Origin: an uncultured Bacteroidales bacterium
GTDB taxonomy: Bacteria; Bacteroidota; Bacteroidia; Bacteroidales; FEN-979
DNA length: 64,000 nt
Direction of reading: 5' to 3'
NCBI GenBank assembly: GCA_903837605.1
Contig: CAILVF010000076.1
Span: 1 to 64,000 of the forward strand
A program made the position numbers and the translations under genes. The notes beneath the pieces are model-generated. The model was not told the origin of the DNA. It ran no database searches and saw only the letters and a program-made list of their open reading frames with translations. Numbering within the stretch: position 1 is the stretch's first letter; each line of letters opens with the position of its first letter. Of the stretch, positions 39,916 to 60,232 are shown piece after piece.

Positions 39916-39980
39916 TCATTTTCAGGTTATAACATTAATCCGGATTGGGCAGTTTTGCGAAGGTGAGAAAAAGAAATACT

Positions 39981-42878
39981 ATGCATTTTAAAGTAATAAG
40001 GATATTCCTGATCATTTGGCTGGCTTCAGTAATTAATCAGGATATATGTGCAAATGCCCTTTATTACGGCTTACCCAGAATATTGAATTTTTCGCGATTA
40101 CAATATGGAGGTGGAATTCAAAGCTGGTCGTTTGCTGAAACAGATAATGGATTACTGTATTTTGCCAATAATCTCGGGCTTCTCGAATATAATGGAACAA
40201 ATTGGTCATTATATAAATCCATTAATGCTGTTAACCGGGCTGCTTGTGCCGATGGCAACAGGATCTATGTGGGAGCCTTTAATGATTTTGGGTTTTATGA
40301 TGAAAATGAAAGAGGTATTTTACAATATCATTCCCTTACCCATTTGATCAAGGGTAAGATTGGAGATTTTGATGAAATATGGAAGATATATAAAACAAGT
40401 TTCGGAATTGTTTTTCAATCATTTAAGGCGATATTTATTTACCAAAACGGCAAAATAGACATCATTTATCCACCTTCGAATTTTCACTTTTCATATTATG
40501 TTAATGGCATTTTATGGATATATGATGAACTGCACGGGCTTATGCAGTATAAGGATGGGAAAGTGGTGACAGTGCCTGGTGGCGATTACTTTAGCGGGAC
40601 ACAAATATGGTCAATATTACCTTTGAATGATGGTGAAATTATTATTGGCACCGCTACTAACGGCCTGTTTCGCTATAACGGCCGGAATGTAATTCCCTGG
40701 GGTTCAAAAATAAATGAGCAACTGAAAAAGTATCAGCTCTATTCGGCAAAGAGGCTGAAAAACAATTATTTCGCTTTTGGCACAATTCAACATGGTTTAA
40801 TCGTTTCCGATTCGGCCGGGAACCTTATTTTTGAAATGAACAAGGAGCGCGGGATGCAGAATAATACGGTTTTAGGAATTGGCCAGGATTATAAAGGTAA
40901 TATCTGGTTATGCCTCGATAACGGCATTTCCATGATCGAATTTGGTTCGCCTGTTTCTTTTTTACAAAATTATTTTGACATAGGAACCGGCTACGCATCA
41001 GCTAAATTTGGAGATAATATTTACCTGGGTACTAATCAGGGACTTTTCTATATCCAGGGAAAAGATTTTATTGATCCTTCAAAAACAAAGTCCGCTTTTA
41101 AATTGATTGAAGGGACCGAAGGGCAGGTGTGGAACCTCTCAGTGATTGATAATACGCTATTTTGCGGTCATAATAACGGAGTATTTCAGGTTAAGGGCAA
41201 TAAAGCTATTAAAATCTCTTCTGTGCCGGGCACGTGGAATTTTTTGAAAATAAATAATACCGGGCTCATCCTGGTTGGTACTTATACTGGTCTTTGTGTT
41301 TTAGAAAACCATGGTGGTTTATGGCACTTAAGAAATATAATGAATGGATTTACCGAGTCATCCCGTTTTGTTCAATATGATCAAATTGGCAATATCTGGG
41401 TCAGTCAAACGTATAAAGGTATTTTCAAAATAAAACATGATAGCTCATGGAGAAATGTACTGGAAGTAAAACTTTTTAATTCAAAAAACGGTCTGCCTTC
41501 CGATCAGTCAAATCTATTATTCAATATTCAGTCAGAAATATTAGTTGCAACGGAGAAAGGAATCTGCAAATTCAATAACAGGACACAGAAATTTGAGAAC
41601 GATGTAAAATATTCACCTTATTTTGACAATGGGATACAGGTTGATTATCTGTACCAGGATTCAGAGAAAAATCTGTGGTTCTCGGCCAATAAACGATTAG
41701 GCGTTTTACGCTTGCAGGAAGATGGTTCCTTTAAAAAGATTACGATTCCATTCTTAAGCCTTGTAAATCTTACTCTCCGAACTTTTGAGAATATCCAGGA
41801 ATTGGACCAGGATAATGTTCTTATTGGCATTGAAGGGGGGTTTGCAAATTATGTTTCGAAAAATAACATGGATTACTCTAAACCTTGTACAATCTATATA
41901 AGCGATCTCATGTCACTTGATACCACCGAAGGCATATACAGATATAACGGGAAGGAGTCAGGTCAGACTATAATACCAGCCTTTAAGTATAAAAATAACA
42001 GTATATCCATTTCCTTTGCAGCAAATAATTTTATGCCTTCTGAAATTGGTTTTCAGTATAAACTGGCAGGTTTTGATAAAAATTGGTCTGAATGGACAAC
42101 CCAGAATTTTAAAGAATATACAAATCTGCCTGATGGACAATACAGGTTTATGCTTCGTGCCCGCAACAATGACCTGACGGCTCCTTCTGAACTGTCTTTC
42201 AAATTCATTGTTCTTGCACCCTGGTATCGTTCAGTTTATGCCTGGATGATTTATTTCTTGCTGCTAATTTTTCTTATTTACCTGGGGAGAAGATATTTAT
42301 TTTATAGAATTGAAAAATCACGCCTTGCTGAGAACCTGAAACAAAAGGAAAAATATCTTAGCCGTGAGCTGAAATTAAAGGAAGAGGCACTTATTGCCGA
42401 GAAAGAAATGCAAAGACTTCGTAACGAGACTTTAAACCTTAAAATGATCCATAAGGAAAAAGAGCTTGCTAATTCAACAATGCTTTTAATTAAAAAGAAT
42501 GACATCCTGAAACAATTGCAAAGCGATCTGAGGGATGTAAATTCAAATGTTGTAAATGAAGTGACAAAAAACAGCATAAACAGCATTTTAAGGCGGATTG
42601 ATAAGGAAATTGATAATCAAAAACAATGGAAAGTATTTGACATCCATGTTGACCAGGTATATGAAGAACTGTTCAAAAAATTAAAGGAAAGCATTCCTGA
42701 TCTCTCGCCCCGCGAATTAAGATTATGTGCTTACCTTCGGATGAATATTTCAAGTAAGGAGATAGCAACTCTCATGAATATAAGTGAACGTGGTGTGGAA
42801 ATCAGCCGTTACCGGATACGGAAAAAACTTGGGCTGGATCACGGGGCTAACCTCACAGAATTTATAATGGGCCTTTAA
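39981..42878 (+). CDS. Membrane one-component regulator: propeller, Y_Y_Y, LuxR-type HTH
   Basis: A 965-residue protein from the ATG at 39981, which gives the signal MHFKVIRIFLIIWLASVI. A TTG at 39945 in the same frame is less likely. The periplasmic part is a two-component-regulator propeller (repeats such as FAETDNGLLYFANNLGLLEY, QDYKGNIWLCLDNGISMIEF, and DSEKNLWFSANKRLGVL) ending in a Y_Y_Y domain (FQYKLAGFDKNWSEWTTQNF). A membrane helix lies at about 749-775 (WMIYFLLLIFLIYLG), then a long coiled-coil, then a C-terminal LuxR-type HTH (SPRELRLCAYLRMNISSKEI, SERGVEISRYRIRKKLGL). There is no kinase or receiver domain, so DNA binding must occur from the membrane or after processing. It lies at the head of the beta-glucan locus and probably senses glucan oligosaccharides. 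Confidence 0.85.
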   Translation: MHFKVIRIFLIIWLASVINQDICANALYYGLPRILNFSRLQYGGGIQSWSFAETDNGLLYFANNLGLLEYNGTNWSLYKSINAVNRAACADGNRIYVGAFNDFGFYDENERGILQYHSLTHLIKGKIGDFDEIWKIYKTSFGIVFQSFKAIFIYQNGKIDIIYPPSNFHFSYYVNGILWIYDELHGLMQYKDGKVVTVPGGDYFSGTQIWSILPLNDGEIIIGTATNGLFRYNGRNVIPWGSKINEQLKKYQLYSAKRLKNNYFAFGTIQHGLIVSDSAGNLIFEMNKERGMQNNTVLGIGQDYKGNIWLCLDNGISMIEFGSPVSFLQNYFDIGTGYASAKFGDNIYLGTNQGLFYIQGKDFIDPSKTKSAFKLIEGTEGQVWNLSVIDNTLFCGHNNGVFQVKGNKAIKISSVPGTWNFLKINNTGLILVGTYTGLCVLENHGGLWHLRNIMNGFTESSRFVQYDQIGNIWVSQTYKGIFKIKHDSSWRNVLEVKLFNSKNGLPSDQSNLLFNIQSEILVATEKGICKFNNRTQKFENDVKYSPYFDNGIQVDYLYQDSEKNLWFSANKRLGVLRLQEDGSFKKITIPFLSLVNLTLRTFENIQELDQDNVLIGIEGGFANYVSKNNMDYSKPCTIYISDLMSLDTTEGIYRYNGKESGQTIIPAFKYKNNSISISFAANNFMPSEIGFQYKLAGFDKNWSEWTTQNFKEYTNLPDGQYRFMLRARNNDLTAPSELSFKFIVLAPWYRSVYAWMIYFLLLIFLIYLGRRYLFYRIEKSRLAENLKQKEKYLSRELKLKEEALIAEKEMQRLRNETLNLKMIHKEKELANSTMLLIKKNDILKQLQSDLRDVNSNVVNEVTKNSINSILRRIDKEIDNQKQWKVFDIHVDQVYEELFKKLKESIPDLSPRELRLCAYLRMNISSKEIATLMNISERGVEISRYRIRKKLGLDHGANLTEFIMGL

Positions 42879-43152: not shown

Positions 43153-46100
43153 TTGAAAAATCAGAAATCAATTTATTTAGGGAATTCTCAGATAAAATTC
43201 CACGGGGCAATGGTTGAAGGCCAATTTGTGGAAATCGAAAACGAAAAATTTTACAAAATCAGCAACTGCAACCAGATGCCTGATTTCTTTATGACCATTG
43301 TGAGTGATTCCGATCACTGGATGTTTATATCAAGTAACGGCTCGCTTTCAGCCGGAAGGAAAGATATTAACAATGCGCTGTTTCCCTATTATACCGTTGA
43401 TAAAATTCACGATTACCGGGACATCACCGGAAGCAAAACCTGCCTGCTGGTAACTACAGGTGAGAAAACCTATTTATGGGAACCCTTTACCCCTGAGTCG
43501 GAAAAAATATATTCGGTGCAAAGGAATCTCTATAAGAGTATTTATGGCAATAAAATAATTTTCGAGGAGATTAATGAGGATTTAGGGGTAGGGTTTCAAT
43601 ATGGTTGGTATAACAGCGAAAAATTTGGGTTTATAAAGAAATCGGTCGTAAGCAATCAAAATAAAGCTAATGTAACTATAGATGTCCTGGATGGGATTAA
43701 GAACATCCTGCCAAATGATATCCGTTTTGATTTCCAGAACTCTTTCAGCAACCTGCTTGATGCATATAAAAAGAGCGAGTTGATTAGTGATTCCAGGCTG
43801 GGTTTGTACATGTTGAGTTCTATCCCGGTCGACAAGGCAGAACCCAGTGAATCCCTAAAAGCAACTACTGTTTGGTTGTGCGGTTTTAATAAAGATGCCA
43901 AAATCCTTCTTTCCGATCACCAGGTTGAAAACTTCAAAACGGGTTTGCAGGTGGAAGAAGAAATTGATATCAGGGCAGCCCGGGGCGCTTACTATGTGAA
44001 TACACGTTTGGAACTGGCCGGTAATGACAAGGAATCATGGATGATAGTTGCAGAAATAAACCAGGACAGCAGTAGCGTTGCAAATCTTGAGCTCGAAATA
44101 AAAACCAACAGGAATATTGAAAAGCTTGTCAGTGCTGATATCGACAAAGGAACAGATAACCTGAAGCGGATTGTATCCAAAGCAGATGGAATGCAGACTG
44201 GAAATGAAGAGTTATGCTTTGCCCGCCATTTCTCGAACACACTTTTCAATATAATGAGGGGTGGAGTTTTCATTGACAATTATACCATAAATACAACTGA
44301 CTTTAAACTCTTTGCCTGGCAATTTAATAAAGGGGTGAGCAATACCTTCAGGACATGGTTTGAACAGCTTCCTGCTGAAATTAATTATCCGGACCTGATG
44401 GCTTTAGCCGAAAATACTGCAAATCCAGACCTGGTCAGGATCTGCTATGAGTATCTGCCGCTGACATTTAGCCGCAGGCATGGCGACCCCAGCCGTCCAT
44501 GGAACCAGTTCTCCATTGAAACAAAAAATGAAGACGGCTCTGTAAAATTGAATTACCAGGGGAATTGGCGGGATATTTTTCAAAACTGGGAGGCGTTAAG
44601 CCTTTCTTTTCCCGGATTCCTGGAAAGTATGATCAGCAAATTCGTAAATGCAACCACTGCTGATGGGTACAATCCATACCGCATTACACGTGAAGGTATC
44701 GACTGGGAATGTCCCGATCAGCACGATCCATGGGCCTATATTGGTTATTGGGGGGATCACCAGGTTATTTATCTTCAGAAATTCCTTGAATTGTCAAATG
44801 AATTTCATCCCGGGAGGCTCGACATCCTGTTGCAAAAAAACGTATTTGCCTATGCCAATGTGCCTTACCGTATAAAGCCGTATTGCGAAATCGTTAAAAA
44901 TCCGAAAGATACCATCGTGTTTGATTTCGCTTTGAATGATACAATTAAGGGGATGGTTGAAAAAACCGGTGCGGATGGACGATTGTTAACAGGCAACGAC
45001 GGTGATATCTACAGAGTTAACCTTACAGAAAAGATTCTCGTTTCATTACTCGCCAAATTATGCAATTTTATCCCTGAGGCCGGCATATGGCTGAATACCC
45101 AGCGTCCCGAATGGAATGATGCAAACAATGCCCTTGTCGGAAACGGCGTTTCAATGGTAACGCTGTATTATTTGAGGCGCTCACTTAAGTTCTGGTCCGA
45201 CAGGTTTGATGGATCTCATCTTCATGAAATAAGCATCTCGGAGGAAGTGGCAAAATTATTCGATGCGGTATTTTCATTATTTGCCCGCAACACCACGCTT
45301 ATCCAAACCGGGTTTTCTGATGCCGATCGTAAGCGCTTTGCTGATGCACTTGGTGAAGCAGCAACGGAATACAGGAATGCCATTTACAAGAATTCATTTT
45401 CCGGTTCAAAAAAAACTGTGCCGGTTACCACCCTGGCTGAATTTGCAAAACTCAGCGCAGCTTACATTGATCAATCTATAAAAGTAAACAAACGTGCCGA
45501 CGGTCTTTACCATGCGTATAATCTGATATCCATTTCTGAAAAAGGGATCTCAATCAGGCATTTGTACGAAATGCTCGAAGGGCAAGTGGCAGTTTTAAGT
45601 GCAGGATATTTATCGGCACAGGAAAGTCTTGATGTGCTTAATTCTTTGAAATGGAGCGATTTGTTCCGTCGTGATCAGTATAGTTACCTGCTTTATCCCG
45701 ACAGGCAATTGCCCCGGTTCGTTGAAAAGAATAATATTCCTGCCGGCAAGGTAAAAGAATCAAAATTGCTCAGCAAACTGGTTGATGGCAACGATTCGTC
45801 CATATTAAGCAGGGACAATTCTGGAAACTTCCATTTTAATGGCAGATTCAGGAATGCTTCGGTTTTGGAGGATGCTTTGAATCAGTTGGATGCTGCTGCT
45901 TATTCGTCTCTCGTTGCCGGGGAGAAAGAAAAGGTTCTGGAAATTTTCGAAGAGATTTTCGACCACCAGTCGTTTACAGGACGTTCGGGAACGTTTTATG
46001 GTTATGAAGGCCTTGGGAGCATTTACTGGCATATGGTTTCCAAATTGTTGCTTGCTGTCCAGGAATGTTATTTCACGGGAATAAAAAAAGGAGCTGACCC

Positions 46101-46653
46101 TGTTGTTCTTGGTAAAATCAAAGATCACTATTATGAAATAAAGGCAGGGATAGGATTGTACAAGTCGCCAGAATTATATGGTGCTTTTCCAACAGATGCT
46201 TATTCACATACGCCGGGAAATTCGGGAGCCCGGCAACCTGGTATGACCGGGCAGGTGAAAGAGGATTTTCTTTCGCGGATGGGGGAACTTGGAATCCATA
46301 TTGAAGAAGGGAAAATAGAATTTCAGCCTTCATTATTAAATCCAGAAGAGTTATTGAAACATGAAAGCGTGTATGAGTATTATGGGCTGCAAGGTGAAAA
46401 GCAGCAAATTTCGCTTAAAGCCGGGCAGTTGGGCTTCACGTTTTGCCAGGTTCCAATAATATACACAGCTTCCGGCGAAGATAAAACCATATTAAGATTC
46501 CGAGACGGAAAGGAAATTTCAATCCCGGGGAAAACAATCGAAAAAGAAATATCTGCCAAAATATTTCAGCGCAGCGGGGAACTGGCGCGGGTAGATGTGT
46601 TAATCAGGCATCTTGTTGATTTGCCAAATTCTGAAACTAAAGTAAACGAATAA
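43153..46653 (+). CDS. Probable GH149-type beta-1,3-oligoglucan phosphorylase
   Basis: A 1166-residue cytoplasmic protein with no signal peptide. The central and C-terminal parts look like an (alpha/alpha)6 barrel of the GH94/GH149 phosphorylase type: RPWNQFSIETKNEDGS, then DPWAYIGYWGDHQVIYLQKF (about 525-545) and PEWNDANNALVGNG with E653-W-N-D656. The size (about 1100 residues, larger than GH94) and the neighbours (GH17, GH16, GH30) point to GH149, which converts beta-1,3-oligoglucans plus phosphate to glucose-1-phosphate. This family call is from pattern and context; GH94 or GH161 are alternatives. The only available start near the promoter is TTG at 43153, as an in-frame stop lies just upstream. 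It heads the locus. Confidence 0.62.
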   Translation: MKNQKSIYLGNSQIKFHGAMVEGQFVEIENEKFYKISNCNQMPDFFMTIVSDSDHWMFISSNGSLSAGRKDINNALFPYYTVDKIHDYRDITGSKTCLLVTTGEKTYLWEPFTPESEKIYSVQRNLYKSIYGNKIIFEEINEDLGVGFQYGWYNSEKFGFIKKSVVSNQNKANVTIDVLDGIKNILPNDIRFDFQNSFSNLLDAYKKSELISDSRLGLYMLSSIPVDKAEPSESLKATTVWLCGFNKDAKILLSDHQVENFKTGLQVEEEIDIRAARGAYYVNTRLELAGNDKESWMIVAEINQDSSSVANLELEIKTNRNIEKLVSADIDKGTDNLKRIVSKADGMQTGNEELCFARHFSNTLFNIMRGGVFIDNYTINTTDFKLFAWQFNKGVSNTFRTWFEQLPAEINYPDLMALAENTANPDLVRICYEYLPLTFSRRHGDPSRPWNQFSIETKNEDGSVKLNYQGNWRDIFQNWEALSLSFPGFLESMISKFVNATTADGYNPYRITREGIDWECPDQHDPWAYIGYWGDHQVIYLQKFLELSNEFHPGRLDILLQKNVFAYANVPYRIKPYCEIVKNPKDTIVFDFALNDTIKGMVEKTGADGRLLTGNDGDIYRVNLTEKILVSLLAKLCNFIPEAGIWLNTQRPEWNDANNALVGNGVSMVTLYYLRRSLKFWSDRFDGSHLHEISISEEVAKLFDAVFSLFARNTTLIQTGFSDADRKRFADALGEAATEYRNAIYKNSFSGSKKTVPVTTLAEFAKLSAAYIDQSIKVNKRADGLYHAYNLISISEKGISIRHLYEMLEGQVAVLSAGYLSAQESLDVLNSLKWSDLFRRDQYSYLLYPDRQLPRFVEKNNIPAGKVKESKLLSKLVDGNDSSILSRDNSGNFHFNGRFRNASVLEDALNQLDAAAYSSLVAGEKEKVLEIFEEIFDHQSFTGRSGTFYGYEGLGSIYWHMVSKLLLAVQECYFTGIKKGADPVVLGKIKDHYYEIKAGIGLYKSPELYGAFPTDAYSHTPGNSGARQPGMTGQVKEDFLSRMGELGIHIEEGKIEFQPSLLNPEELLKHESVYEYYGLQGEKQQISLKAGQLGFTFCQVPIIYTASGEDKTILRFRDGKEISIPGKTIEKEISAKIFQRSGELARVDVLIRHLVDLPNSETKVNE

Positions 46654-46662
46654 ATTTACCGA

Positions 46663-47580
46663 ATGAATTTTTTTACAACATTTGGTCTTGCTCAAGGGAA
46701 AGCACTATGCTACTCAGGATACAGGCATGGGCAAAGCCCTGATTCGGGTGTGTATCCCACTTATACACAGATAAAGGAAGATTTGCTCATACTGCAGAAA
46801 CATTGTGCATACATCCGTTTATACGATTGCAGCTTGCATGCCGAAACAGTCCTGAAAGTCATCGACCAGGAAAAACTGGACCTCAAAGTTATGCTTGGTG
46901 CCTTTATCGGTGCTGAATTGAATAATTTCGGTTGTCCATGGGGGACCATCTTTACTGAAGAGGAACTGAAAAAAAATACAAGACACAACCTGGAGGAAAT
47001 CAGGAAACTCATCAAACTGGCTAATCAATATCCTGACATTATTTTTTCACTTTCGGCAGGCAATGAAGCTACCGTTGACTGGACCGATCATTATGTTTCG
47101 GTTGAAAAAGTGATCAGATATGTGAAGATGATTAAAAAGGGAGCCAAACAGCCCGTTACTTTCTGCGAAAGTTATGTCCCCTGGTATGACAAACTGAAAC
47201 GCCTGGTTGATGAAATCGATTTTATTTCCATTCACTCCTACCCGATTTGGGAGTATAAGCATATTCATGAAGCCATGGGATATACTAAACAGAACTACCA
47301 GGGCATTGCTGACAGATATCCCGATAAGCCCGTCGCAATTACCGAGGCAGGCTGGGCAACCAATTCAAGTGGGCGCGGCATAAATCCCGAAAACGCAAGC
47401 GAGGAATTCCAGGCGATATATTATAACGACCTGATTGAGTGGAGCGAAAAAGAAGGTATTATGACTTTTATTTTTGAGGCTTTCGATGAGCCCTGGAAAG
47501 GTTCTCCTGAAGCTCTTGAACCTGAAAAACACTGGGGTTTGTTTACGGTGGACCGAAAGCCTAAAAAAGTATTTCAATAA
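46663..47580 (+). CDS. GH17 beta-1,3-glucanase, no signal peptide
   Basis: A 305-residue TIM-barrel glycosidase of family GH17. Acid/base Glu135 lies in FSLSAGNEATVDW and nucleophile Glu228 in VAITEAGWAT. Conserved IRLYDC near residue 51 and the closing FEAFDEPWKG with HWGLFTVDRK fit bacterial exo-type GH17 enzymes. The N-terminus (MNFFTTFGLAQGKALCYSGY) lacks a credible signal peptide, so a cytoplasmic location is likely. It may trim imported beta-1,3-glucooligosaccharides or rearrange them by transglycosylation, ahead of the phosphorylase encoded 9 nt upstream. Confidence 0.85.
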   Translation: MNFFTTFGLAQGKALCYSGYRHGQSPDSGVYPTYTQIKEDLLILQKHCAYIRLYDCSLHAETVLKVIDQEKLDLKVMLGAFIGAELNNFGCPWGTIFTEEELKKNTRHNLEEIRKLIKLANQYPDIIFSLSAGNEATVDWTDHYVSVEKVIRYVKMIKKGAKQPVTFCESYVPWYDKLKRLVDEIDFISIHSYPIWEYKHIHEAMGYTKQNYQGIADRYPDKPVAITEAGWATNSSGRGINPENASEEFQAIYYNDLIEWSEKEGIMTFIFEAFDEPWKGSPEALEPEKHWGLFTVDRKPKKVFQ

Positions 47581-47662: not shown

Positions 47663-49114
47663 ATGGAGCATTACAAAACAAAGCCGGAAGATGTTGTGCC
47701 GATTGGACAGAAGCTGGCCTTTGGCGCAGGCAGTTTAGCAAATCAATTATTCCCTGCAGCTGTCGGAGCATATATGGGAGCGGTTGTAATTATTTTTGGG
47801 ATGGACCCTTATTTAGCGGGTATCCTATCTGCAATACCCCGCTTCCTGGATGCAATCCTCGATCCGGTAATGGGTTACATCTCTGACAATACACGTTCGC
47901 GGTGGGGACGCCGGAAACCCTATATTTTCATAGGGTCTATCGTTACCAGTCTCCTTTTCATTCTTATGTGGCAATTATTTATCGGACATTCTCAAATGTT
48001 CAATTTTTGGTATATCCTTATTATTTCATTATTGTTCTACATCGGTTTGACTGTTTTCGCAGCACCACTTATTGGTCTTGGATACGAATTGACACCAGAT
48101 TATAATGAACGTACCCGTTTAATGGCCGTTTCCCAATTTCTAGGCCAGTTTGCATGGATGATCTCACCATGGTTTTTATATATTATTTATAATTTTTATG
48201 GTAAAGAACCCCATTTGGCAGCTGCAGGTTCCCGGCATTTGGCTATTTACATTGGGTTTTTATGCCTGATACTTGGTGTTTTACCGGCCTTATTCTGCAA
48301 AGAAATAGATCAGACCAATATATCCGGTCAATCAAAATTATCACTAAAGAATCTTGCTGAAAACATGAAACATTTCTTTAAAGGATTTGCAGAAACCGTT
48401 AAAAATGTGCCTTTTTTACGTCTTTGCGGGGCTACGTTTTGCGTGTTTAATGGTTTTCAGTTAATTGCATCCTTCAGCGTATTTATCATTATGTATTATG
48501 TTTTCCCAAAAGGGCAGGAGGTTCAGGATATTTCAACTCTGTGGATTGGATTGTTTGGTACCGTAAGTTCATTTGCTACGGCATTTTTAGTCATTCCAAT
48601 CATCACTTTTATGTCGGGTAAAATAGGTAAAAGAAATGCCTTCATTATTTCCATATTAATCTCAACAGTAGGTTATATTTTGAAATGGTGGGCATTTCAA
48701 TATGCCATAGAAACACACTGGTTAATGTTTGTACCGCTTCCTTTCATTTCGTTTGGAATAGGTGGTTTATTCACCCTGATGATGTCAATGACTGCCGATG
48801 TATGCGACTATGATGAATTGAAAAACGGGATGCCCAGAAAAGAAGCTACATTTGGTGCAATTTACTGGTGGATGGTAAAACTTGGAACTTCTCTTGCTGT
48901 TTTGTTTGGCGGATTTGTTCTTAGTGGAGTCGGATTTGACCCTGCACTTCCTGTCCAAACTATGGATACTCTTACGAAACTCCGTCTTGCAGATATCATT
49001 ATTCCGGTAGTTACCGGGCTATTAGCGATCCTGATCATGTGGAACTATGATATTACCGAAAAAAGGGCACGTGAAATACGAAATACATTAGTTGAACGCA
49101 GGGGTGAGTTATAA
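47663..49114 (+). CDS. MFS/GPH-family sugar:cation symporter
   Basis: A 483-residue inner-membrane transporter with about twelve hydrophobic segments. The glycoside-pentoside-hexuronide (MelB-like) loop is clear: DPVMGYISDNTRSRWGRRKP after helix 2, with an Asp-rich cation-binding region (FLDAILDPVMG). A second-half motif GGLFTLMMSMTADVCDYDEL is typical of GPH carriers. It sits between two GH17 genes in the beta-glucan locus. It most likely imports gluco-oligosaccharides or glucose released in the periplasm. No ABC or PTS transporter is present in the locus. Confidence 0.9.
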   Translation: MEHYKTKPEDVVPIGQKLAFGAGSLANQLFPAAVGAYMGAVVIIFGMDPYLAGILSAIPRFLDAILDPVMGYISDNTRSRWGRRKPYIFIGSIVTSLLFILMWQLFIGHSQMFNFWYILIISLLFYIGLTVFAAPLIGLGYELTPDYNERTRLMAVSQFLGQFAWMISPWFLYIIYNFYGKEPHLAAAGSRHLAIYIGFLCLILGVLPALFCKEIDQTNISGQSKLSLKNLAENMKHFFKGFAETVKNVPFLRLCGATFCVFNGFQLIASFSVFIIMYYVFPKGQEVQDISTLWIGLFGTVSSFATAFLVIPIITFMSGKIGKRNAFIISILISTVGYILKWWAFQYAIETHWLMFVPLPFISFGIGGLFTLMMSMTADVCDYDELKNGMPRKEATFGAIYWWMVKLGTSLAVLFGGFVLSGVGFDPALPVQTMDTLTKLRLADIIIPVVTGLLAILIMWNYDITEKRAREIRNTLVERRGEL

Positions 49115-49158: not shown

Positions 49159-50046
49159 ATGTCAGCAAGAGAAGAAAAAATTATGGCTTTGGCAGGAGTT
49201 GATTTTGCCAATAAAACCAAAGAAGAATTACAGGATCTGTTCAGAAAAGTTTTGAATGGAGGGACGCACGGACTCTGTTTCAGTCCTTACGAAGAAGGGC
49301 AAAAGCCGGGGAATGTACTTTCTGAAAATCAAATAAGAAGAAGAATGGAGATAATAAAACCTTACACAAAATGGGTTCGTTCTTTTTCCTGTATCGAAGG
49401 CAATGAGTTGATTCCGAAAATTGCAAAAGAATTTGGCATTAAAACCTTAGTTGGCGCCTGGTTAGGTAAAGAGGTTGACAAAAATGAACAGGAAATCGCC
49501 GAACTGATCAAATTAGCAAAAGATGGCTATGTCGATATTGCTGCCGTTGGCAATGAAGTATTATATCGTCATGATTTGACCGAGATTAAACTTCTGGATT
49601 ATATTTATAAGGTAAAAGCAGCGATTCCAGAGGTACCCGTTGGTTATGTTGATGCATATTATGAATTTTCGATGCGTCCTAAAATCACGGAGGCATGCGA
49701 TGTTATTTTAGCAAACTGTTATCCATTCTGGGAATGCTGCCACATTGATTATTCATTGATGTATATGAAAACAATGTTTTACCAGGCTCTGCAAGCAGGC
49801 GGAGGCCTTAAGCATGTGATTATTTCAGAAACCGGGTGGCCAAGCCAGGGAGAAGATTATAAAGGAGCGATGCCTTCTATGGAAAATGCAATGAAATATT
49901 TTATCAATACCCAATTATGGTCAAAAGAAGAAGATGTTGATATTTTTTACTTTACTTCGTTTGACGAATCATGGAAAGTTGGTGCCGAAGGCGATGTTGG
50001 AGCTTTCTGGGGAATTTGGGATAAAAATGAAAACATCAAATATTGA
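49159..50046 (+). CDS. Second GH17 glycosidase, no signal peptide
   Basis: A 295-residue GH17 protein distinct from the one at 46663. Acid/base Glu133 lies in DIAAVGNEVLYR and nucleophile Glu224 in HVIISETGWPS. The SETGWPS form is closer to plant and fungal GH17 motifs than the TEAGWAT form of the other. The closing YFTSFDESWKVGAEGDVGAF fits the family's last strand. There is no signal peptide (MSAREEKIMALAGVDFANKT), so it is probably cytoplasmic. Two different GH17s in one locus suggest division of labour, for example by linkage position or chain length. Confidence 0.85.
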   Translation: MSAREEKIMALAGVDFANKTKEELQDLFRKVLNGGTHGLCFSPYEEGQKPGNVLSENQIRRRMEIIKPYTKWVRSFSCIEGNELIPKIAKEFGIKTLVGAWLGKEVDKNEQEIAELIKLAKDGYVDIAAVGNEVLYRHDLTEIKLLDYIYKVKAAIPEVPVGYVDAYYEFSMRPKITEACDVILANCYPFWECCHIDYSLMYMKTMFYQALQAGGGLKHVIISETGWPSQGEDYKGAMPSMENAMKYFINTQLWSKEEDVDIFYFTSFDESWKVGAEGDVGAFWGIWDKNENIKY

Positions 50047-50145: not shown

Positions 50146-53100
50146 ATGAAAAAAGCTTTTCTCGCATTTGTTCTTTTCTTGTTTATGACAACTAATATTT
50201 TTGCGCAGGCTGACAAAGTAACTGTTGTTAATAGCAATAAAGGATTTAAGCTATTTGTCAATGGTAACAATTTTATGATTAATGGCATGAATTGGGATTA
50301 CTTTCCAATTGGTACTAATTATACATATAGTTTGTGGAAGCAACCTGATGATTACATTAAAACCGCACTTGATATGGAGATGCCCTTGTTAAAGAACATG
50401 GGGGTAAATGCCATTCGTGTATATGTTGGCATTCAGCCAAAGTGGATTAAGTATATCTACGAGAAATATGGTATTTACACAATGATAAATCATTCTTTCG
50501 GGAGATATGGCCTGACATTGAAGGGCACATGGTTCCCGAATACTGATTATTCTGATTCACGTGTGCACGACCTGCTTTTGAAGGAAGTAACCCAGATGGT
50601 AGAAGATTATAAAAATACCCCGGGTTTACTCGTGTATTTATTAGGGAATGAAAACAATTACGGACTTTTCTGGAGGGGAGCCGAAACGGAAGATATTCCC
50701 CTGGAGCAAAGAAAATCCACAACTGATGCCAAAGCATTGTATAAACTTTTTAACGAAGCGGCCCTGGCAATGAAAACTATCGATAATTCGCATCCGGTAG
50801 CAATATGCAATGGAGATTTACTTTTCCTGAATATTATTTCTGAGGAATGCAAGGATATTGACATCCTTGGCTGTAATATGTATCGCGGTGTTTCATTTAC
50901 AGACGCATTTCAAAAAACAAAAGAAGTATTGAAAAAACCGATCATGTTTACCGAGTTTGGCGCTGATGCCTTTAATGTAATCAGCAATGCGGAAGATCAG
51001 CAATCCCAGGCATACTATTTGACAAACAACTGGAAGGAAATTTATGAAAATGCAGCGGGTATTGGTAAAGCCGGAAACTGTATCGGCGGATTTACTTTTC
51101 AATTCAGCGATGGATGGTGGAAATATAAGCAAACCGAAAATCTAAACATACATGACACACATGCATCCTGGTCCAACGGAGGGTACAACGATTATACGCC
51201 GGGAGAAGATAATATGAATGAGGAGTGGTTCGGTATATGTGCAAAAGGTCAAACAGATGAAAGGGGCCATTATCAATTATATCCCCGGGCTGCATATTAT
51301 GCATTACAACAAGCTCACCAGATAAATCCGTTTGCCAATAATGTAACAGCCGATTCAATAACCAGGTATTTTTCAAATATAAAGTTAGTAAACGAAGTTC
51401 TAAAAGCCAGGGGGGATAATGCTTCTTTGATTACTGAAATAGCAAAAAAGATTAATATTAATGTAAGGGCTGAAATAACAACTTTCAGTACCGGCGGCGA
51501 TAAAATTACTACGCCGAAAGAAAAAGACGCTAAGGCTATAACGCAGACTTATCCCAGTTTTCTTGGTTTTGACCATATGGAGTCCTTTTATATTGGCGTT
51601 GAAGCGAAGCCTACCGAAAATATAAAAGCAAATGTATCTTTCAATATTCTCGGGCATGTAGCTGAAAATCCAATTGATGAAATATTTTATGAAAATCACG
51701 GCCGTCCTCAGACGGTAGAAACTAATCAGGGTCCTTATGCCATACCCTCAATAAATCGAATACAAGTATATAATTTCGATTTTACCTGGAACAACAAGTG
51801 GTTTAATCTTACAAGTTTTTACCGTACAGGGCATTATCACTGGGGATACGAAGGTGACCTTTTCGGATTATATCCGGAGGCAAATTATGGACCAAACATT
51901 GATATTTACAATGGAGACGCACCTTTTGGTTTTGAATTCGAAGGTAAAAAAGCATTGGATGGATTAAAAGTTGCTTTTGGTCCTGAGCTTTGGTGGGGCG
52001 CCAATCCGGCAGTGTTGGTAAAATACAGCCGAAAACTGGGAATCTTTACCTTAACCGGAATATATCATGAAGATTTAGCCCAAAATACGGCAGCACAGAG
52101 TTCCTATGCCATCCCTACTCCTCAAAACCGCAGAGCTTTACTTGACGTAAAAGCAAATTTTGGAAAAGTTGTTCTCGATCTTGGTGGTTTATGGTCAGGT
52201 CAGCCAAGAAACGGCGAAACCTTTCAGTTAGTTGACGGTAGCCCGGGAAATTACATAGTATACCAGGACAAAATAACATGGAAGGACAACTGGGGGGGGA
52301 AAGCTAAAATAACCTTTTCTTCAGGGCCAGTCAACGTTTATGCTCAGGGAGCGGTGATGGGACTGGTTGCCAGTGGCGGAGCAGATTATACCAAAACTTT
52401 TACCGGATGGCGTCTTAAAGATTGCGGAAGCGGCAACCAGTATAATTTTTTAATGGGCATGACCTATACAATAGGTGATTTTCAGATAGCACCGAATTTC
52501 TTATGGCAAAAACCAATTGTAGGACCGATATCAAGCGATGTCCCAGCTCCGGGGAGGCCGAGAAATATAGTTGATGACCCGTTTGCCGTAAGGCAAAACA
52601 GGCAAACCACGGCTGGTGAACTTCTAATTGCCTATGATCCTACACCCGGCACCTGGATGTGGGCATGGGATAATGACGAGATGGAAGATGCTCCGTTTGC
52701 AATCAGTGCCGATTTTGTGTATCGTCATCTGCCTACAACCCAGGATGCTGCAATAGGTATTATGGCAAATGGACGCACACTTTTTGCTTTTCCCGGCGCA
52801 CCGCCAGCACATGATTTATGGGAGGTCAGTTCAAGGATTGTATCAAAAGTTACCCGCGACTTTGGATTTATATTAAATCTTTATGGGGGTACGGGCCAGG
52901 CCAATGGAAGTGACGGAAGATTAATCAGCCGTTTTGGAACTGATATAAGACTGGTTTACAAAAAACTCAAACTGATCTCTGCTGTTAAAGTTAATGATTG
53001 GGGACCTTACGATTATGATCGTGACTTTAACTTAACTTACCCTCTGCAGTTAATGGCCGATCTGTCATACTCTGTTTCAAAGCGCAAATGGTTTATTCTG

Positions 53101-53283
53101 CCGGAAACAAAAGTGGGAATGCGTTGTACATGGCGAAGCCTTGACCAGTATTCACCACGATATTGCCCTGTTAAAATGCTGGATGGTTCGGGCAATTGGG
53201 TGCCTGACCCCACCGCAGTAGGATATGGAAATGGCGATGAATGGGAAATCAGATTTTACCTTCACTTTAATTTCGGCAAATAA
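50146..53283 (+). CDS. TIM-barrel glycosidase fused to predicted outer-membrane beta-barrel
   Basis: A 1045-residue exported protein with signal MKKAFLAFVLFLFMTTNIFA then Q. Residues about 25-395 form a clan GH-A TIM barrel related to GH2/GH5 catalytic domains: GMNWDYFPIG, MGVNAIRVYVG, acid/base Glu169 in YLLGNENNYGLFW and nucleophile Glu270 in IMFTEFGADAF. After a helical stretch (about 400-450), residues about 475-1045 are beta-rich with alternating aromatic and polar residues and many Tyr/Trp-bordered strands (SFYIGVEAKPTENIKANVSF, FNLTSFYRTGHYHWGYEGDL). The chain ends with WEIRFYLHFNFGK, like the last strand of an outer-membrane barrel. The predicted result is a glycosidase tethered to its own porin-like barrel. 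The substrate is inferred as beta-glucan from the locus. Confidence 0.75.
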   Translation: MKKAFLAFVLFLFMTTNIFAQADKVTVVNSNKGFKLFVNGNNFMINGMNWDYFPIGTNYTYSLWKQPDDYIKTALDMEMPLLKNMGVNAIRVYVGIQPKWIKYIYEKYGIYTMINHSFGRYGLTLKGTWFPNTDYSDSRVHDLLLKEVTQMVEDYKNTPGLLVYLLGNENNYGLFWRGAETEDIPLEQRKSTTDAKALYKLFNEAALAMKTIDNSHPVAICNGDLLFLNIISEECKDIDILGCNMYRGVSFTDAFQKTKEVLKKPIMFTEFGADAFNVISNAEDQQSQAYYLTNNWKEIYENAAGIGKAGNCIGGFTFQFSDGWWKYKQTENLNIHDTHASWSNGGYNDYTPGEDNMNEEWFGICAKGQTDERGHYQLYPRAAYYALQQAHQINPFANNVTADSITRYFSNIKLVNEVLKARGDNASLITEIAKKININVRAEITTFSTGGDKITTPKEKDAKAITQTYPSFLGFDHMESFYIGVEAKPTENIKANVSFNILGHVAENPIDEIFYENHGRPQTVETNQGPYAIPSINRIQVYNFDFTWNNKWFNLTSFYRTGHYHWGYEGDLFGLYPEANYGPNIDIYNGDAPFGFEFEGKKALDGLKVAFGPELWWGANPAVLVKYSRKLGIFTLTGIYHEDLAQNTAAQSSYAIPTPQNRRALLDVKANFGKVVLDLGGLWSGQPRNGETFQLVDGSPGNYIVYQDKITWKDNWGGKAKITFSSGPVNVYAQGAVMGLVASGGADYTKTFTGWRLKDCGSGNQYNFLMGMTYTIGDFQIAPNFLWQKPIVGPISSDVPAPGRPRNIVDDPFAVRQNRQTTAGELLIAYDPTPGTWMWAWDNDEMEDAPFAISADFVYRHLPTTQDAAIGIMANGRTLFAFPGAPPAHDLWEVSSRIVSKVTRDFGFILNLYGGTGQANGSDGRLISRFGTDIRLVYKKLKLISAVKVNDWGPYDYDRDFNLTYPLQLMADLSYSVSKRKWFILPETKVGMRCTWRSLDQYSPRYCPVKMLDGSGNWVPDPTAVGYGNGDEWEIRFYLHFNFGK

Positions 53284-53299
53284 TTAAAATTTGATAAAG

Positions 53300-55165
53300 A
53301 TGAAAAATTTAAAATCAATCTGTTCAATAACTGCTCTGGTAACAATTCTGCTAGTAGCAGTCAGCTGTGAAAGAAAATTCGATGGATTAAAGTTGGCAAC
53401 CTATCCGACTACAGCCGATGTTTTCAACGATGGATTCAGTTCAGGTTTGTATTATGCAGCCTATGGAACCTCAAAAGTAACAGCGTTTAGCGTAGATTAC
53501 AGTGTAAAATATTCAGGAACGTGTTCAATGAAATTTGAAGTTCCTGATGCAGGAGACCCTGATGGTTCGTATGCAGGCGGAGTTTTTGGTTCAAATCCTG
53601 CCCGCGACCTGTCAGGATACACTGTGCTTACTTTTTGGGCAAAAGCATCTCAACCTGTAACCATCAACATTTTGGGCTTCGGTAATGACATGGGGGCATC
53701 AAAATACCAGGTTTCTCTGACAAATTTAGCCATTAACTCAAATTGGATGGAATATTACATCCCAATTCCCAATCCATCCTTGCTTACGCAGGAAAGAGGC
53801 CAGTTTTTTTACGCGGCAACACCTCAGGATGGAAGAGGTTATACATTCTGGATCGATGATCTTAAGTTTGAAGCGTTGGGAACAATTGCGCATTCAGAAT
53901 TTGGAATTTTTAACGGAGCTGATACGGTTGTAAACAATGTTCAAGCTGGTGATAACATTACAATAGGTGGCTTGTATGCTACATTTAACCTGCCTACCGG
54001 CATAAATGAAGAAGTTAATTTGACGGCTTCCTATTTCACATTTTCCTCCTCCAATACGACAGTAGCTACAGTAGATTCTTTGGGAATTGTGCATATAGCG
54101 GATAGTGGCTCGGCTGTGATTACGGCGAAAGTTGGGAATGTGGCTGCGAACGGTTCATTAACAATTCATTCAACAGGCAAACCGGTTGGACCCGCCACAC
54201 CTCCCCCAACTCCTACCTTCAGCAGTGATAAGGTAATTTCGTTATACAGTAACGCCTATACAAATGTCCCGGTAGATACCTGGAATGCTCACTGGCAATA
54301 TTCAACAGCAGAAAATCAGTTTATTAAAATACAGGGGGACGATATAATACTTTATCAAAAACTTAATTTCGTCGGGATAGAGTTTACGTCACATACAATT
54401 GATGCCAGTGCCATGACTTATTTCCATCTGGATATCTGGACCCCAAATCCTACAACCAATAAAACTTTTAAAATCAAGTTGGTTGATTTCGGTTTAGACG
54501 GTGTGGTGGGCGGCTCTGATAATTCCGAATCCGAGGTTACTATTGCCAGTCCCCCCCTGGCCACTCAACAATGGATAAGCCTGGATATTCCATTTTTAAG
54601 TTTCTCGGGATTGAATAGCAGAAAGCATTTGGCACAATTGGTTCTTTCAGGCGACTTACCTGATATTTATTTAGATAATGTATTTTTCTATAATAACGGG
54701 ACCCCTCCGCCTGCACCAACTACCGCAGCTCCTACTCCGACTTTCAGCCCGGCAGATGTTCTCTCTGTTTTTAGTGATGCTTATACCAACCTTCCCGGAA
54801 CAGACTTAAATCCTAACTGGGGTCAAACTACTGTCTTTTCCCAGATTCTTATCCAAGGAAACAACACCATTAAATATGCGGGATTAAATTATCAGGGAAT
54901 CCAGCTGGGCAGCAATCAGAATCTTACTTCAATGAGTTATCTGCATCTGGATTTCTGGTCATCCTTTTCAACTTCACTTAAAGTTTACCTGATCAGTCCA
55001 GGACCCGTTGAAACACCTTATACTTTAACAGTTCCCACCTCAGGTTGGTCTTCCGTGGATATTCCATTATCTTCTTTTGCACCCGTGGATTTAACGAATG
55101 TATTCCAATTTAAATTTGAGGGGAATGGAGATGTTTTTGTAAACAATATCTTATTCCACAAATAA
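53300..55165 (+). CDS. Multi-domain glycan-binding lipoprotein
   Basis: A 621-residue lipoprotein from the ATG at 53300, with signal MKNLKSICSITALVTILLVA then VSC (Cys23). It carries three beta-sandwich modules of carbohydrate-binding-module type: about 30-195 (FNDGFSSGLYYAAYGTSKVT, FWAKASQPVTINILGFG), about 300-460 (VISLYSNAYTNVPVDTWNAH) and about 485-620 (VLSVFSDAYTNLPGTDLNPN). A BIG2-like Ig domain lies between (FTFSSSNTTVATVDSLGIVH). The last two modules are clear internal duplicates separated by Pro/Thr linkers (GPATPPPTPTFS and PTTAAPTPTFS). There is no catalytic site. It is likely the surface glycan-binding protein of this locus and starts 17 nt after the fusion-enzyme stop. Confidence 0.8.
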   Translation: MKNLKSICSITALVTILLVAVSCERKFDGLKLATYPTTADVFNDGFSSGLYYAAYGTSKVTAFSVDYSVKYSGTCSMKFEVPDAGDPDGSYAGGVFGSNPARDLSGYTVLTFWAKASQPVTINILGFGNDMGASKYQVSLTNLAINSNWMEYYIPIPNPSLLTQERGQFFYAATPQDGRGYTFWIDDLKFEALGTIAHSEFGIFNGADTVVNNVQAGDNITIGGLYATFNLPTGINEEVNLTASYFTFSSSNTTVATVDSLGIVHIADSGSAVITAKVGNVAANGSLTIHSTGKPVGPATPPPTPTFSSDKVISLYSNAYTNVPVDTWNAHWQYSTAENQFIKIQGDDIILYQKLNFVGIEFTSHTIDASAMTYFHLDIWTPNPTTNKTFKIKLVDFGLDGVVGGSDNSESEVTIASPPLATQQWISLDIPFLSFSGLNSRKHLAQLVLSGDLPDIYLDNVFFYNNGTPPPAPTTAAPTPTFSPADVLSVFSDAYTNLPGTDLNPNWGQTTVFSQILIQGNNTIKYAGLNYQGIQLGSNQNLTSMSYLHLDFWSSFSTSLKVYLISPGPVETPYTLTVPTSGWSSVDIPLSSFAPVDLTNVFQFKFEGNGDVFVNNILFHK

Positions 55166-55205: not shown

Positions 55206-56048
55206 ATGAAAAATTTAATTATAAAAATAGTCCCGGCAGCCATATTTTCATTATTGCTTATTACACTTTTCGGATGTCAGAAAGATAATGTCCAAAAAAT
55301 TGATCAACGGAATTGGCAGCTGGTGTGGAGTGATGATTTCAATGGTTCAGCAGGGACGTCGCCTGATCCCTCGAAATGGGGATTTGATATAGGAAACGGT
55401 CCGAATCACGACGGTTGGGGCAATGCAGAACTGGAATACTACACAAATCGTCCGGCTAATGCGAGCTTAGACGGCAACGGTAATTTAGTGATCACTGCCA
55501 GAGAAGAGTCATATTCCGGTTCAGGTTTTACTTCGGCCCGTATTAAAACCTTAGGATTACTTGATCAAACCTACGGACGTTTTGAAGCCCGCCTTAAAAC
55601 GCCCTGGGGACCTGGAATCTGGCCGGCATTCTGGTTACTTGGCTCCAATGTAGATTCTCTGGGATGGCCTCAATCTGGCGAAATTGATATCATGGAACTT
55701 CGTGGACAGAAACCCAACATTATAAATGGCACAGTGCATGGCCCCGGATATTCAGGAGCTGCAGGAATTACAAAAAGTTTTGCCTTCGAGAATGACAGAT
55801 TTGATGTTAACTACCATGTGTTTGCTGTTGAATGGGGAGCAGATTTTATAGATTTCTTTGTTGACAGCACACTATATCAAGAAATTACTCCCGGCAAGGT
55901 AACCGGAAACTGGGTTTTTAATCATCCTTTCTATATTATTCTGAATGTCGCTGTTGGTGGTAACTATGTTGGGTTCCCTTCAAGCCTGACTCCTTTCCCT
56001 CAAACAATGATTATTGATTATGTAAAAGTTTACAAGGAAGCAGATTAA
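55206..56048 (+). CDS. GH16 laminarinase lipoprotein (endo-beta-1,3-glucanase)
   Basis: A 280-residue secreted enzyme with signal MKNLIIKIVPAAIFSLLLIT then LFGC (Cys24 lipidated). It has the GH16 jelly-roll with WSDDFNGSAGTSPDPSKWGF, WGNAELEYYTNRPANASLDG, then the catalytic motif Glu159-Ile-Asp161-Ile-Met-Glu164 in SGEIDIMELRG. The extra Met between Asp and the second Glu (ExDxxE) is the laminarinase type, as opposed to the ExDxE lichenase/agarase type. It ends with the conserved NVAVGGNYVGFPSSLTPFP and MIIDYVKVYK. It probably sits on the outer surface and cuts laminarin-like chains. Confidence 0.93.
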   Translation: MKNLIIKIVPAAIFSLLLITLFGCQKDNVQKIDQRNWQLVWSDDFNGSAGTSPDPSKWGFDIGNGPNHDGWGNAELEYYTNRPANASLDGNGNLVITAREESYSGSGFTSARIKTLGLLDQTYGRFEARLKTPWGPGIWPAFWLLGSNVDSLGWPQSGEIDIMELRGQKPNIINGTVHGPGYSGAAGITKSFAFENDRFDVNYHVFAVEWGADFIDFFVDSTLYQEITPGKVTGNWVFNHPFYIILNVAVGGNYVGFPSSLTPFPQTMIIDYVKVYKEAD

Positions 56049-56055
56049 AACGAGA

Positions 56056-57546
56056 ATGAAAAGATTGGAATTTTACCTGGCCAGTTCTCTTATGATCATT
56101 TTAACGGGTTGCGATGCACAGCAAAATAAACTAACTGTTGATGTCTTTGAAACTTCTGCAAATGGCAATAAACTCAAAAGAATTACTGAATTTCCTGCCG
56201 CAAGCGAAGCTGTATCCATTCAGTTGTTACCTGGAAATAAATTTCAAACCATCACCGGATTTGGAGGGTCGTTCACTGAGGCCTCTGCTTATTTGTTAAA
56301 CAAATTAAGCAAGAAAAACCGTGATCTGATTTTAGATGCTTATTTTGGGACTAGAGGAGCCAGGTATTCCTTAACCCGCACGCATATCAATTCCTGCGAT
56401 TTTTCATTGGGCAATTATTCATATGCACCTGTAAAAGGAGACAAGGAATTGGAACATTTTTCAATAGACGAGGACCGTGACGATATAATTCCCATGATCA
56501 GGGATGCAATGACCCATTCTGAAGACGGATTTAAGATCATCGCTTCCCCATGGACGGCGCCGCCGTGGATGAAAGATAATAACGAATGGAGGGGAGGAAA
56601 ATTACTGCCGGAATACTATGATTGCTGGGCTTTGTTCTTCTCAAAATATATTAATGAATATAAAAAAGAAGGTATTGATATCTGGGGATTAACCGTCGAG
56701 AATGAACCCCTGGGGAATGGCAGCAATTGGGAGAGCATGCTCTATTCACCTGAAGAAATGGTGGATTTTGTAAAAAACCATCTTGGTCCCAAACTGAAAG
56801 CCGATGGACAGCATGTAAAAGTGCTGGCTTATGACCAGAATCGCGGAGAAGAGTTGGAACGATGGGCAAAAGTGATTTATAAAGATGAACCTTCATCACA
56901 GTACTTCGACGGTTTTGCGGTTCACTGGTATGCTAGTACATTCGACTGGTTTCCCGAATCATTGAATTTTACGCATAATATGGCTCCCGGTAAGCATCTT
57001 ATTCAATCGGAAGCTTGTGTTGATGCAGAAGTGCCTCATTGGCTGGATGACAAATGGTACTGGTCGGAAGAAGCAACTGACTGGGGATGGGATTGGGCAC
57101 CTGCGGATCAGAAAAAGCTTCATCCTAAATATGTTCCTGTATACCGTTATGCCAGAGATATTATCGGTTGTCTGAATAGCTGGGTAGATGGTTGGGTAGA
57201 CTGGAACATGGTTTTAGACAGGCAGGGCGGCCCCAACTGGTTTAAAAACTGGTGTGTTGCACCTGTAATAGTCGATCCTGAGAAGGATGAAGTCTACTTC
57301 ACACCCTTGTATTATATTCTGGCTCACTTTAGTAAATATATCCGGCCCGGGGCTGTACGAATCGGATTTGAAAACACGGACCCGTCATTAATGCTGACTG
57401 CAGCCCTGAATCCTGACGGATCCATTGCTGTCGTTATCTTAAACATGAATTCAGAATTAAAAAACATAAACCTTTCACTCGGTAATCGTACAGTTAAATT
57501 GCAGATAAGTGCTCAGGCAATACAAACGATTGTAGTTTTGCAGTAA
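56056..57546 (+). CDS. GH30 beta-glucanase lipoprotein (probable beta-1,6-glucanase)
   Basis: A 496-residue secreted enzyme with signal MKRLEFYLASSLMIILTGC (Cys19). It is a GH30 subfamily-type protein with a TIM barrel plus a beta-sandwich side domain. ITGFGGSFTEASAYLLNKL and SLTRTHINSCDFSLGNYSY are characteristic. Acid/base Glu217 lies in LTVENEPLG and nucleophile Glu319 in LIQSEACVD. SPWTAPPWMKDNNEWRGG and the C-terminal ILNMNSELKNINL complete the family pattern. In beta-1,3/1,6-glucan loci, GH30 removes beta-1,6 branches or cleaves pustulan-like stretches, complementing GH16. It starts 7 nt after GH16. Confidence 0.92.
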   Translation: MKRLEFYLASSLMIILTGCDAQQNKLTVDVFETSANGNKLKRITEFPAASEAVSIQLLPGNKFQTITGFGGSFTEASAYLLNKLSKKNRDLILDAYFGTRGARYSLTRTHINSCDFSLGNYSYAPVKGDKELEHFSIDEDRDDIIPMIRDAMTHSEDGFKIIASPWTAPPWMKDNNEWRGGKLLPEYYDCWALFFSKYINEYKKEGIDIWGLTVENEPLGNGSNWESMLYSPEEMVDFVKNHLGPKLKADGQHVKVLAYDQNRGEELERWAKVIYKDEPSSQYFDGFAVHWYASTFDWFPESLNFTHNMAPGKHLIQSEACVDAEVPHWLDDKWYWSEEATDWGWDWAPADQKKLHPKYVPVYRYARDIIGCLNSWVDGWVDWNMVLDRQGGPNWFKNWCVAPVIVDPEKDEVYFTPLYYILAHFSKYIRPGAVRIGFENTDPSLMLTAALNPDGSIAVVILNMNSELKNINLSLGNRTVKLQISAQAIQTIVVLQ

Positions 57547-57556
57547 CATAGTGCGT

Positions 57557-58387: not shown

Positions 58388-58454
58388 TTTATCAGGGTAA
58401 ACCGGCATTCCGGTGTATTTTCTTTGTACAATATATTTTCACAATAAATTTTTC

Positions 58455-60092: not shown

Positions 60093-60232
60093 ATGACGAT
60101 GGGGGATCCCTTCAATCTCCGGCTGAATAAATTCAGGATTCCACAGATTAAAATTCAGGGTTCATTGATTACATTTTGAAAGCGGGCTCCATGAAAATAT
60201 TTTTGTTCCCGGTTAAATTAAACAAACAGATC

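Follow-up and report, generated by a model that had tools for sequence, protein, structure and literature searches.

The window analysed here, a stretch of 64,000 nucleotides from an uncultured Bacteroidales bacterium (contig CAILVF010000076.1) to which nucleotide positions refer unless a locus is named, encodes a single chain of 1045 amino acids in which a glycoside hydrolase (GH) of clan GH-A is followed by a predicted outer-membrane β-barrel (50146..53283, forward strand, an uninterrupted open reading frame, ORF). The single chain, the conservation of both of its halves and the content of its locus are established in this work, and the barrel-like fold by prediction. In Bacteroidota, SusC/SusD pairs, in which uptake is TonB-driven, are a common marker for finding glycan-uptake loci. 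We regard it as fairly probable that the fusion protein serves as an outer-membrane channel for β-1,3-glucan oligosaccharides, equipped with its own glycosidase and replacing SusC/SusD at this locus; its pore function, the side on which the enzyme lies, the substrate and the order of the steps are what we infer from the evidence below.

The chain begins with a signal peptide of the signal peptidase I (SPase I) type (residues 1-20, 50206 being the first nucleotide after it; 50146..50205, by eye), in which a lipobox is absent; the lipobox pattern is likewise missing in 90 of 92 fused stop-to-stop ORFs, whose first 75 residues were scanned. The catalytic domain (about residues 21-413, 50206..51384), delimited from Pfam, structure and profile comparison, is joined by a linker helix (about residues 414-435, 51385..51450; predicted structure and alignments) to the predicted barrel of about 22 strands (residues 436-1045, 51451..53280; model, fold matches and alternation test). 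The original prediction, made from the letters of the window, had placed a signal peptide, a GH-A catalytic domain with Glu169 and Glu270 and a β-rich part in one chain, and this layout is confirmed; the β-rich part, however, begins near residue 436, not 475, and spans about 610 residues instead of about 570.

The fusion is not peculiar to this contig. A contig search gave at least 576 confirmed relatives, of which 80 loci were kept (L002-L081), and both halves are under purifying selection, with a ratio of nonsynonymous to synonymous substitution rates (dN/dS) of 0.05-0.17 in four pairs; a chance ORF or an assembly fusion was rejected on these grounds. Of 296 Bacteroidota genomes, 41 have a match to the full-length profile, and in 28 of these the match is long and extends across both halves. 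In a sample of 395 Bacteroidota genomes, the barrel profile matches 36, in 33 of which the barrel lies inside one ORF of more than 1000 amino acids; a broken copy, a remnant and a weak hit account for the rest. The enzyme profile was found in the same 33 genomes, in ORFs of the same size, which rules out an assembly artefact. It matches 47 genomes altogether: besides the 33 with a fusion, 8 have a standalone enzyme (in one case interrupted by the end of the contig), 2 a truncated or broken copy (L152, L153) and 4 a distant match. No intact barrel without the enzyme turned up in the 395 genomes. The fusion family is widespread and conserved in Bacteroidota. Two fused loci (L042 and L028) come from contigs that carry the labels candidate division KSB1 and Thermoanaerobaculia, and represent either transfer outside Bacteroidota or misbinned contigs.

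Retaining glycosidases of clan GH-A are (β/α)8 barrels with an acid/base Glu after strand 4 (in an NE motif) and a nucleophile Glu after strand 7. In the window protein, the predicted acid/base is E169 in a GNE motif (50650..50652) and the predicted nucleophile E270 in a TEFG motif (50953..50955), both identified by alignment and by their match to GH158 motifs, and GH-A structures match the domain at Z of about 25. Loss of either residue in close homologues would have spoken against the assignment. The two are invariant in all 75 aligned full-length proteins (the window and 74 of the 80 kept loci, at 63-86% identity to the window protein; six partial, frame-broken or near copies were omitted), and also across 13 rows that include four standalone relatives. 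In a comparison of the profile with PDB sequences, E169 and E270 correspond to the catalytic GNE and TE[FW]G motifs of two GH158 sequences, although these profile matches are marginal (whole-sequence E 4.7e-4 and 0.0049; best single stretch 0.075 and 0.028, neither reaching 0.01). By VIA-align, a GH5 mannanase (Z 25.6) ties with GH158(Pro) (Z 25.2-25.4), over 277-299 residues; among the structures listed, the nearest solved enzymes are those of GH158 and GH5. The Pfam GH2 TIM-barrel model PF02836 matches residues 75-280 with 33.1 bits (cut-off 21), but membership in GH2 was rejected since this generic TIM model alone matches; the sugar-binding and Ig-like domains of the GH2 N-terminus have no Pfam match, and the catalytic domain begins directly after the signal peptide. 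The domain is probably a glucan-cutting clan GH-A glycosidase.

The β-rich half was modelled both within the full-length protein and alone. The full-length model has a predicted local distance difference test score (pLDDT) of 73.7 and a predicted template-modelling score (pTM) of 0.57, and in Foldseek it retrieves GH158(Pro) first, then GH2 enzymes, with TonB-dependent transporters from rank 13. With AlphaFold2, the C-terminal part alone (614 residues) gives a pLDDT of 80.9, a pTM of 0.79 and long anti-parallel hairpins. Among the 50 PDB matches that Foldseek lists for this barrel, 49 are named outer-membrane barrel proteins (TonB-dependent transporters first, then MOMP, AlgE, Occ porins, OmpF, OmpT and OmpU), and the exception is 9j9n, an entry whose description reads artificial Zn metalloprotein. 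VIA aligns the barrel with AlgE at Z 17.0 across 280 residues, with Occ porins at about 14-16, with the SusC of BT1762-1763 at Z 13.4 across 378 residues, and with ushers across model positions 1-614. The call of an outer-membrane barrel in the original prediction, made by eye, agrees with the predicted structure. No Pfam model exceeds its cut-off in the β-rich part, either in the window protein or in 78 barrels scanned; a DUF6882 match in 9 of the 78 members lies below the Pfam cut-off and was disregarded, and four matches of the barrel profile to PDB sequences (lectins and a deacetylase, E 0.075 or worse) were taken as chance.

From the DSSP string of the model we assigned 22 transmembrane strands. 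Because this count treats the hairpins at 522-533, 594-611 and 692-709 as parts of loops, the true number may be 24 or more. Two tests, both dependent on these model-derived strands, agree with a membrane barrel. The inward/outward alternation of hydrophobicity over the 22 strands is 1.34 versus 0.68 in shuffles, none of 5000 shuffles reaching the observed value, while the strands of the GH domain give no signal under the same test (2804 of 5000). Inward positions, which are richest in N, T, G and K, are more conserved than outward ones, richest in F, L, V, I and Y, in 19 of the 22 strands (0.818 versus 0.714, Wilcoxon p 0.003). The C-terminal half is thus predicted to form an outer-membrane β-barrel of about 22 strands with a polar, conserved lumen and large extracellular-side loops. 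In the model, the longest of these loops (residues 560-621, 51823..52008; conservation 0.88, aromatic-rich) is a candidate constriction or glycan contact, and the longest periplasmic-side turn (residues 831-851, 52636..52698; conservation 0.83) a candidate docking site for the enzyme.

The distribution of loop lengths bears on the side of the membrane on which the enzyme lies. Eight of the ten even-to-odd connections (2-3, 4-5, 6-7, 8-9, 10-11, 12-13, 16-17 and 18-19) are 2-3 residues long, the exceptions being 14-15 (21 residues) and 20-21 (12 residues), while the odd-to-even connections are 7-62 residues long and several of them are highly conserved. Short turns of known outer-membrane barrels are on the periplasmic side. 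Since strand 1, to which the enzyme is attached, starts on the short-turn side, the predicted topology puts both barrel ends at the periplasmic face of the membrane, and the enzyme most likely there too, beneath the pore. The original prediction of a glucan-cleaving enzyme tethered to a pore therefore stands as far as an enzyme and a predicted barrel in one chain at a glucan locus are concerned; its suggestion that products pass directly into the periplasm reads as if the enzyme were on the outside, and an outside enzyme runs against the predicted topology. A KARGD(K/N) stretch of the linker (KARGD, then mostly KAAL) shows strong conservation among fused proteins but is degenerate in the standalone forms, as expected of a barrel-docking element.

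Such an order of modules, an N-terminal enzyme, a helix and a C-terminal barrel, is also found in classical enzyme autotransporters, for example EstA. The enzyme might accordingly be exported through or with the barrel to the cell surface, with helix 414-435 in the lumen and the barrel acting as a secretion or anchoring device. The strong conservation of part of the linker in fused proteins, as well as the lipoprotein-like character of several standalone forms, would suit this alternative. We nevertheless consider it unlikely. The translocator of type Va autotransporters is C-terminal, with 12 strands in about 300 residues, whereas the barrel described here is modelled with about 22 strands in 614 residues, a polar and conserved lumen and long outer loops, and no autotransporter (translocator) Pfam match was found at E 0.1 among the 78 barrels. 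Moreover, four barrel-less relatives (L133, L134, L138 and L152) have ordinary SPase I signal peptides, no lipid anchor (by eye) and no long C-terminal extension, and for that reason look periplasmic.

The genes around the fusion, all on the forward strand, make up, as judged from their sequences, most of a β-glucan pathway. Upstream are a SusR-like regulator (39945..42878; Pfam-type matches to Reg_prop, Y_Y_Y and GerE), a GH149 β-1,3-glucan phosphorylase (43153..46653; NCBIfam NF058639, 1714.7 bits, cut-off 1150) and, assigned by profile matches, two GH17-like enzymes (46663..47580 and 49159..50046) and, between them, a GPH-type sugar symporter of the inner membrane (47663..49114). Downstream are a partner lipoprotein (53300..55165), a laminarinase-like GH16 lipoprotein (55206..56048) and a GH30 lipoprotein (56056..57546), the latter two assigned by profile match with the lipobox seen by eye; the best NCBIfam match of the GH30 protein is an endo-1,6-β-glucanase model, at 269.8 bits far under the cut-off of 700. 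Inspection by eye shows no signal peptide in the GH149 protein, the two GH17 proteins or the symporter, and the GH16 and GH30 proteins are lipoprotein-like; the fused domain is therefore the likeliest periplasmic enzyme of the cluster.

The partner lipoprotein, described from profiles and an alignment, consists of a conserved N-terminal region, a Big_2-like domain and tandem binding-module-like repeats, and its lipobox Cys is invariant in 16 aligned proteins. It lies directly 3' of the fusion in 85 of the 86 loci, out of 92, that have at least 800 bases of room (the exception is L149), and a GH16 gene lies within 6 kb in 72 of the 73 loci, again out of 92, having 6 kb of room. Of the 80 kept loci, many of them cut by contig ends, 78 contain the lipoprotein, 70 GH16, 45 GH149 and 1 SusC/SusD. 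The lipoprotein profile has six matches in the PDB, all in its Ig-like stretch (profile positions about 248-304). Its length in the window and the kept loci ranges from about 450 to 1185 amino acids, varying with the number of C-terminal binding-module-like repeats. A further lipoprotein-like ORF (57551-58387, 278 amino acids) has no Pfam match at E 0.01 and carries an EIDIE stretch, which we take to resemble the GH16 catalytic motif, so that it may be a divergent GH16-like protein. Beyond the locus (58413-63678) are three proteins with C-terminal domains of the type IX secretion system (two metallophosphoesterases and one arylsulfotransferase-like protein).

In the pathway that we propose, and on the assumption that the lipoproteins face outwards, surface GH16 and GH30 enzymes would cut the glucan into oligosaccharides, while the adjacent lipoprotein would hold the glucan at the surface in place of SusD or surface glycan-binding proteins (SGBPs). 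The oligosaccharides would pass the plug-free barrel in the outer membrane, and the GH-A domain, attached at the periplasmic end of strand 1, would trim them as they leave the pore. Trimming at the exit would keep uptake downhill and size the products for the inner-membrane GPH symporter, which would import them for complete breakdown by the cytoplasmic GH17 and GH149 enzymes. More tentatively, the protein might be a hydrolysis-coupled importer, in which the enzyme replaces the gate or plug and cleavage at the periplasmic mouth, not TonB or the proton-motive force, drives net uptake; it would then represent a second, SusC/SusD-free solution to import across Bacteroidota. This stronger version we hold to be possible, though doubtful.

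No SusC or SusD was found among the 13 ORFs scanned (39.9-63.7 kb, the search for SusC taking in what follows the first 39.9 kb), and the SusC/SusD pair of a canonical polysaccharide utilization locus (PUL) is not among them. SusD (PF07980) has no match anywhere on the fusion contig; the SusD matches of the genome are at 5 other loci. The SusC and SusD profiles, built from matches among the same loci (12-13 rows each), recover both genes at all five of these, which also fed the profiles. Either gene lies near 4 of 92 fused copies (L013, L141, L143 and L144), as against one or both near 5 of 11 standalone copies (L129 has just SusC and L136 just SusD; of the 11 stretches, four are shorter than 10 kb), a contrast with a Fisher p of 5e-4. 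As proof of replacement it is weakened by an independent-pairs test, which itself has no power. Among 12 further fused loci, picked by the analyst from phylum and family searches, three have SusC/SusD, all in family f6 (L141, L143 and L144, beside the fusion); a sister in the same family, L134, is barrel-less.

Standalone enzymes also inform the history of the fusion. A tree was built from 51 rows, 11 of them standalone and 40 fused; the fused set had been reduced from 93 by keeping one in three of L002-L081. It requires at least 4 changes between the fused and standalone states, and standalone rows lie inside fused groups. In L152 (2166-3620), a standalone GH gene, a decayed barrel stretch that matches up to residue 486 comes after the stop codon. 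Since standalone rows nest in fused groups and L152 keeps a barrel remnant, repeated barrel loss is the likely direction, and the barrel can evidently be dropped. In L131 and L135 the match continues 20 and 8 codons past the stop (weakly), and in L153 (1328-3201) a fused gene is broken by stops and a frame change, its match ending at residue 636, by decay or assembly error.

These switches, which make the barrel dispensable in some lineages, together with the SusD matches at 5 other loci, would be in line with a barrel that is a mere anchor keeping the enzyme near the outer membrane while oligosaccharides enter via other transporters. However, lipid-facing residues are less conserved than inward ones, no other outer-membrane transporter is found among the 13 ORFs scanned, and 22 strands with a conserved 62-residue loop would be superfluous for anchoring; we judge an anchor somewhat less probable even than an autotransporter-like device. 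A derivative of a TonB-dependent transporter, still TonB-coupled and with the GH domain in place of the plug, is very improbable: the first barrel Foldseek matches are such transporters, which have 22 strands, and the enzyme occupies the plug position, but there is no Plug or TonB_dep_Rec Pfam match in the window ORF or the 78 barrels, the transporters share about 10% sequence identity or less with the barrel, and the sole stretch that we took, by eye, to be TonB-box-like (DKVTVV, following the signal peptide) coincides in the alignment with the first strand of the GH fold and was given no weight for that reason.

Several observations weigh against the glucan channel that we favour. In comparisons with PDB barrels the predicted barrel reaches low TM-scores (0.17-0.38, by query length), the alignments behind the models are shallow, with rows 62-88% identical to the window protein, and a full-length pTM of only 0.57 means that the arrangement of the domains is not predicted. 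A plug-free pore of 22 strands would be wide unless closed by loops. Seven of the 10 standalone copies with a visible N-terminus are lipoprotein-like by eye and may face outwards (a lipobox pattern scan gave 5 of 11, L139 being without its N-terminus). The four fused loci with SusC or SusD named above speak against replacement, and the contrast with standalone copies depends on ancestry, as only 4 pairs are usable, without significance, and the SusC/SusD state changes twice on the tree. Finally, the flanks from which the absence of these genes was judged extend over at most about 8-17 kb, and contig ends cut many of them short.

If the channel function is correct, the fusion may take over the role of the standard sugar importer in many Bacteroidota and would provide an additional import route for laminarin-type glucans. 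Loci of this kind, mostly without SusC/SusD nearby, would escape SusC/SusD-based surveys. The fusion makes it testable whether hydrolysis at a pore exit can replace energised transport, and lineages in which the barrel was apparently lost can serve as natural comparisons.

Like GH158 enzymes (BuGH158, PDB 6pal; GH158(Pro), 9oro series), the fusion has a GH-A barrel, an aligned Glu pair and a β-1,3-glucan context (VIA Z 23.9-25.4), but the solved chains (404-424 residues) have no outer-membrane barrel, and sequence similarity is marginal. With SusC/SusD and TonB-dependent transporters it shares a predicted outer-membrane barrel of about 22 strands, a partner lipoprotein presumed to lie at the surface and a glycan-uptake locus; unlike them, it has no plug domain (no Plug match) and no SusD-type partner, and carries an enzyme at the N-terminus instead. 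OprD/Occ, LamB, chitoporin and AlgE, barrels of 16-18 strands, share the fold (Z about 13-17) and, if the fusion is a pore, the character of a passive substrate-specific channel, but they lack a fused enzyme and belong to other phyla. EstA-like type Va autotransporters also combine an N-terminal enzyme with a C-terminal outer-membrane barrel; theirs has 12 strands, holds the enzyme outside and is not a nutrient transporter. An enzyme-porin fusion of this kind is not described among the literature matches listed, although bioRxiv and most subscription journals were outside the search and a prior description is possible. According to one report (PMC11345257), laminarin loci of other flavobacteria contain a GH2 protein together with GH17 and binding-module proteins, and this GH2 protein may correspond to the fusion. 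In Cytophaga hutchinsonii, the atypical cellulose locus chu_1276-1280 (PMC12016534) contains a predicted TonB-transporter-like barrel and binding proteins and is free of SusC/SusD; there, the endoglucanase is a separate gene and the substrate is cellulose. The Formosa protein FbGH17B (PMC6246565) likewise joins a transporter and a laminarin enzyme in one chain, but as an inner-membrane fusion of a major facilitator superfamily (MFS) transporter with GH17, whereas in the window the GPH symporter and the GH17 enzymes are encoded by separate genes.

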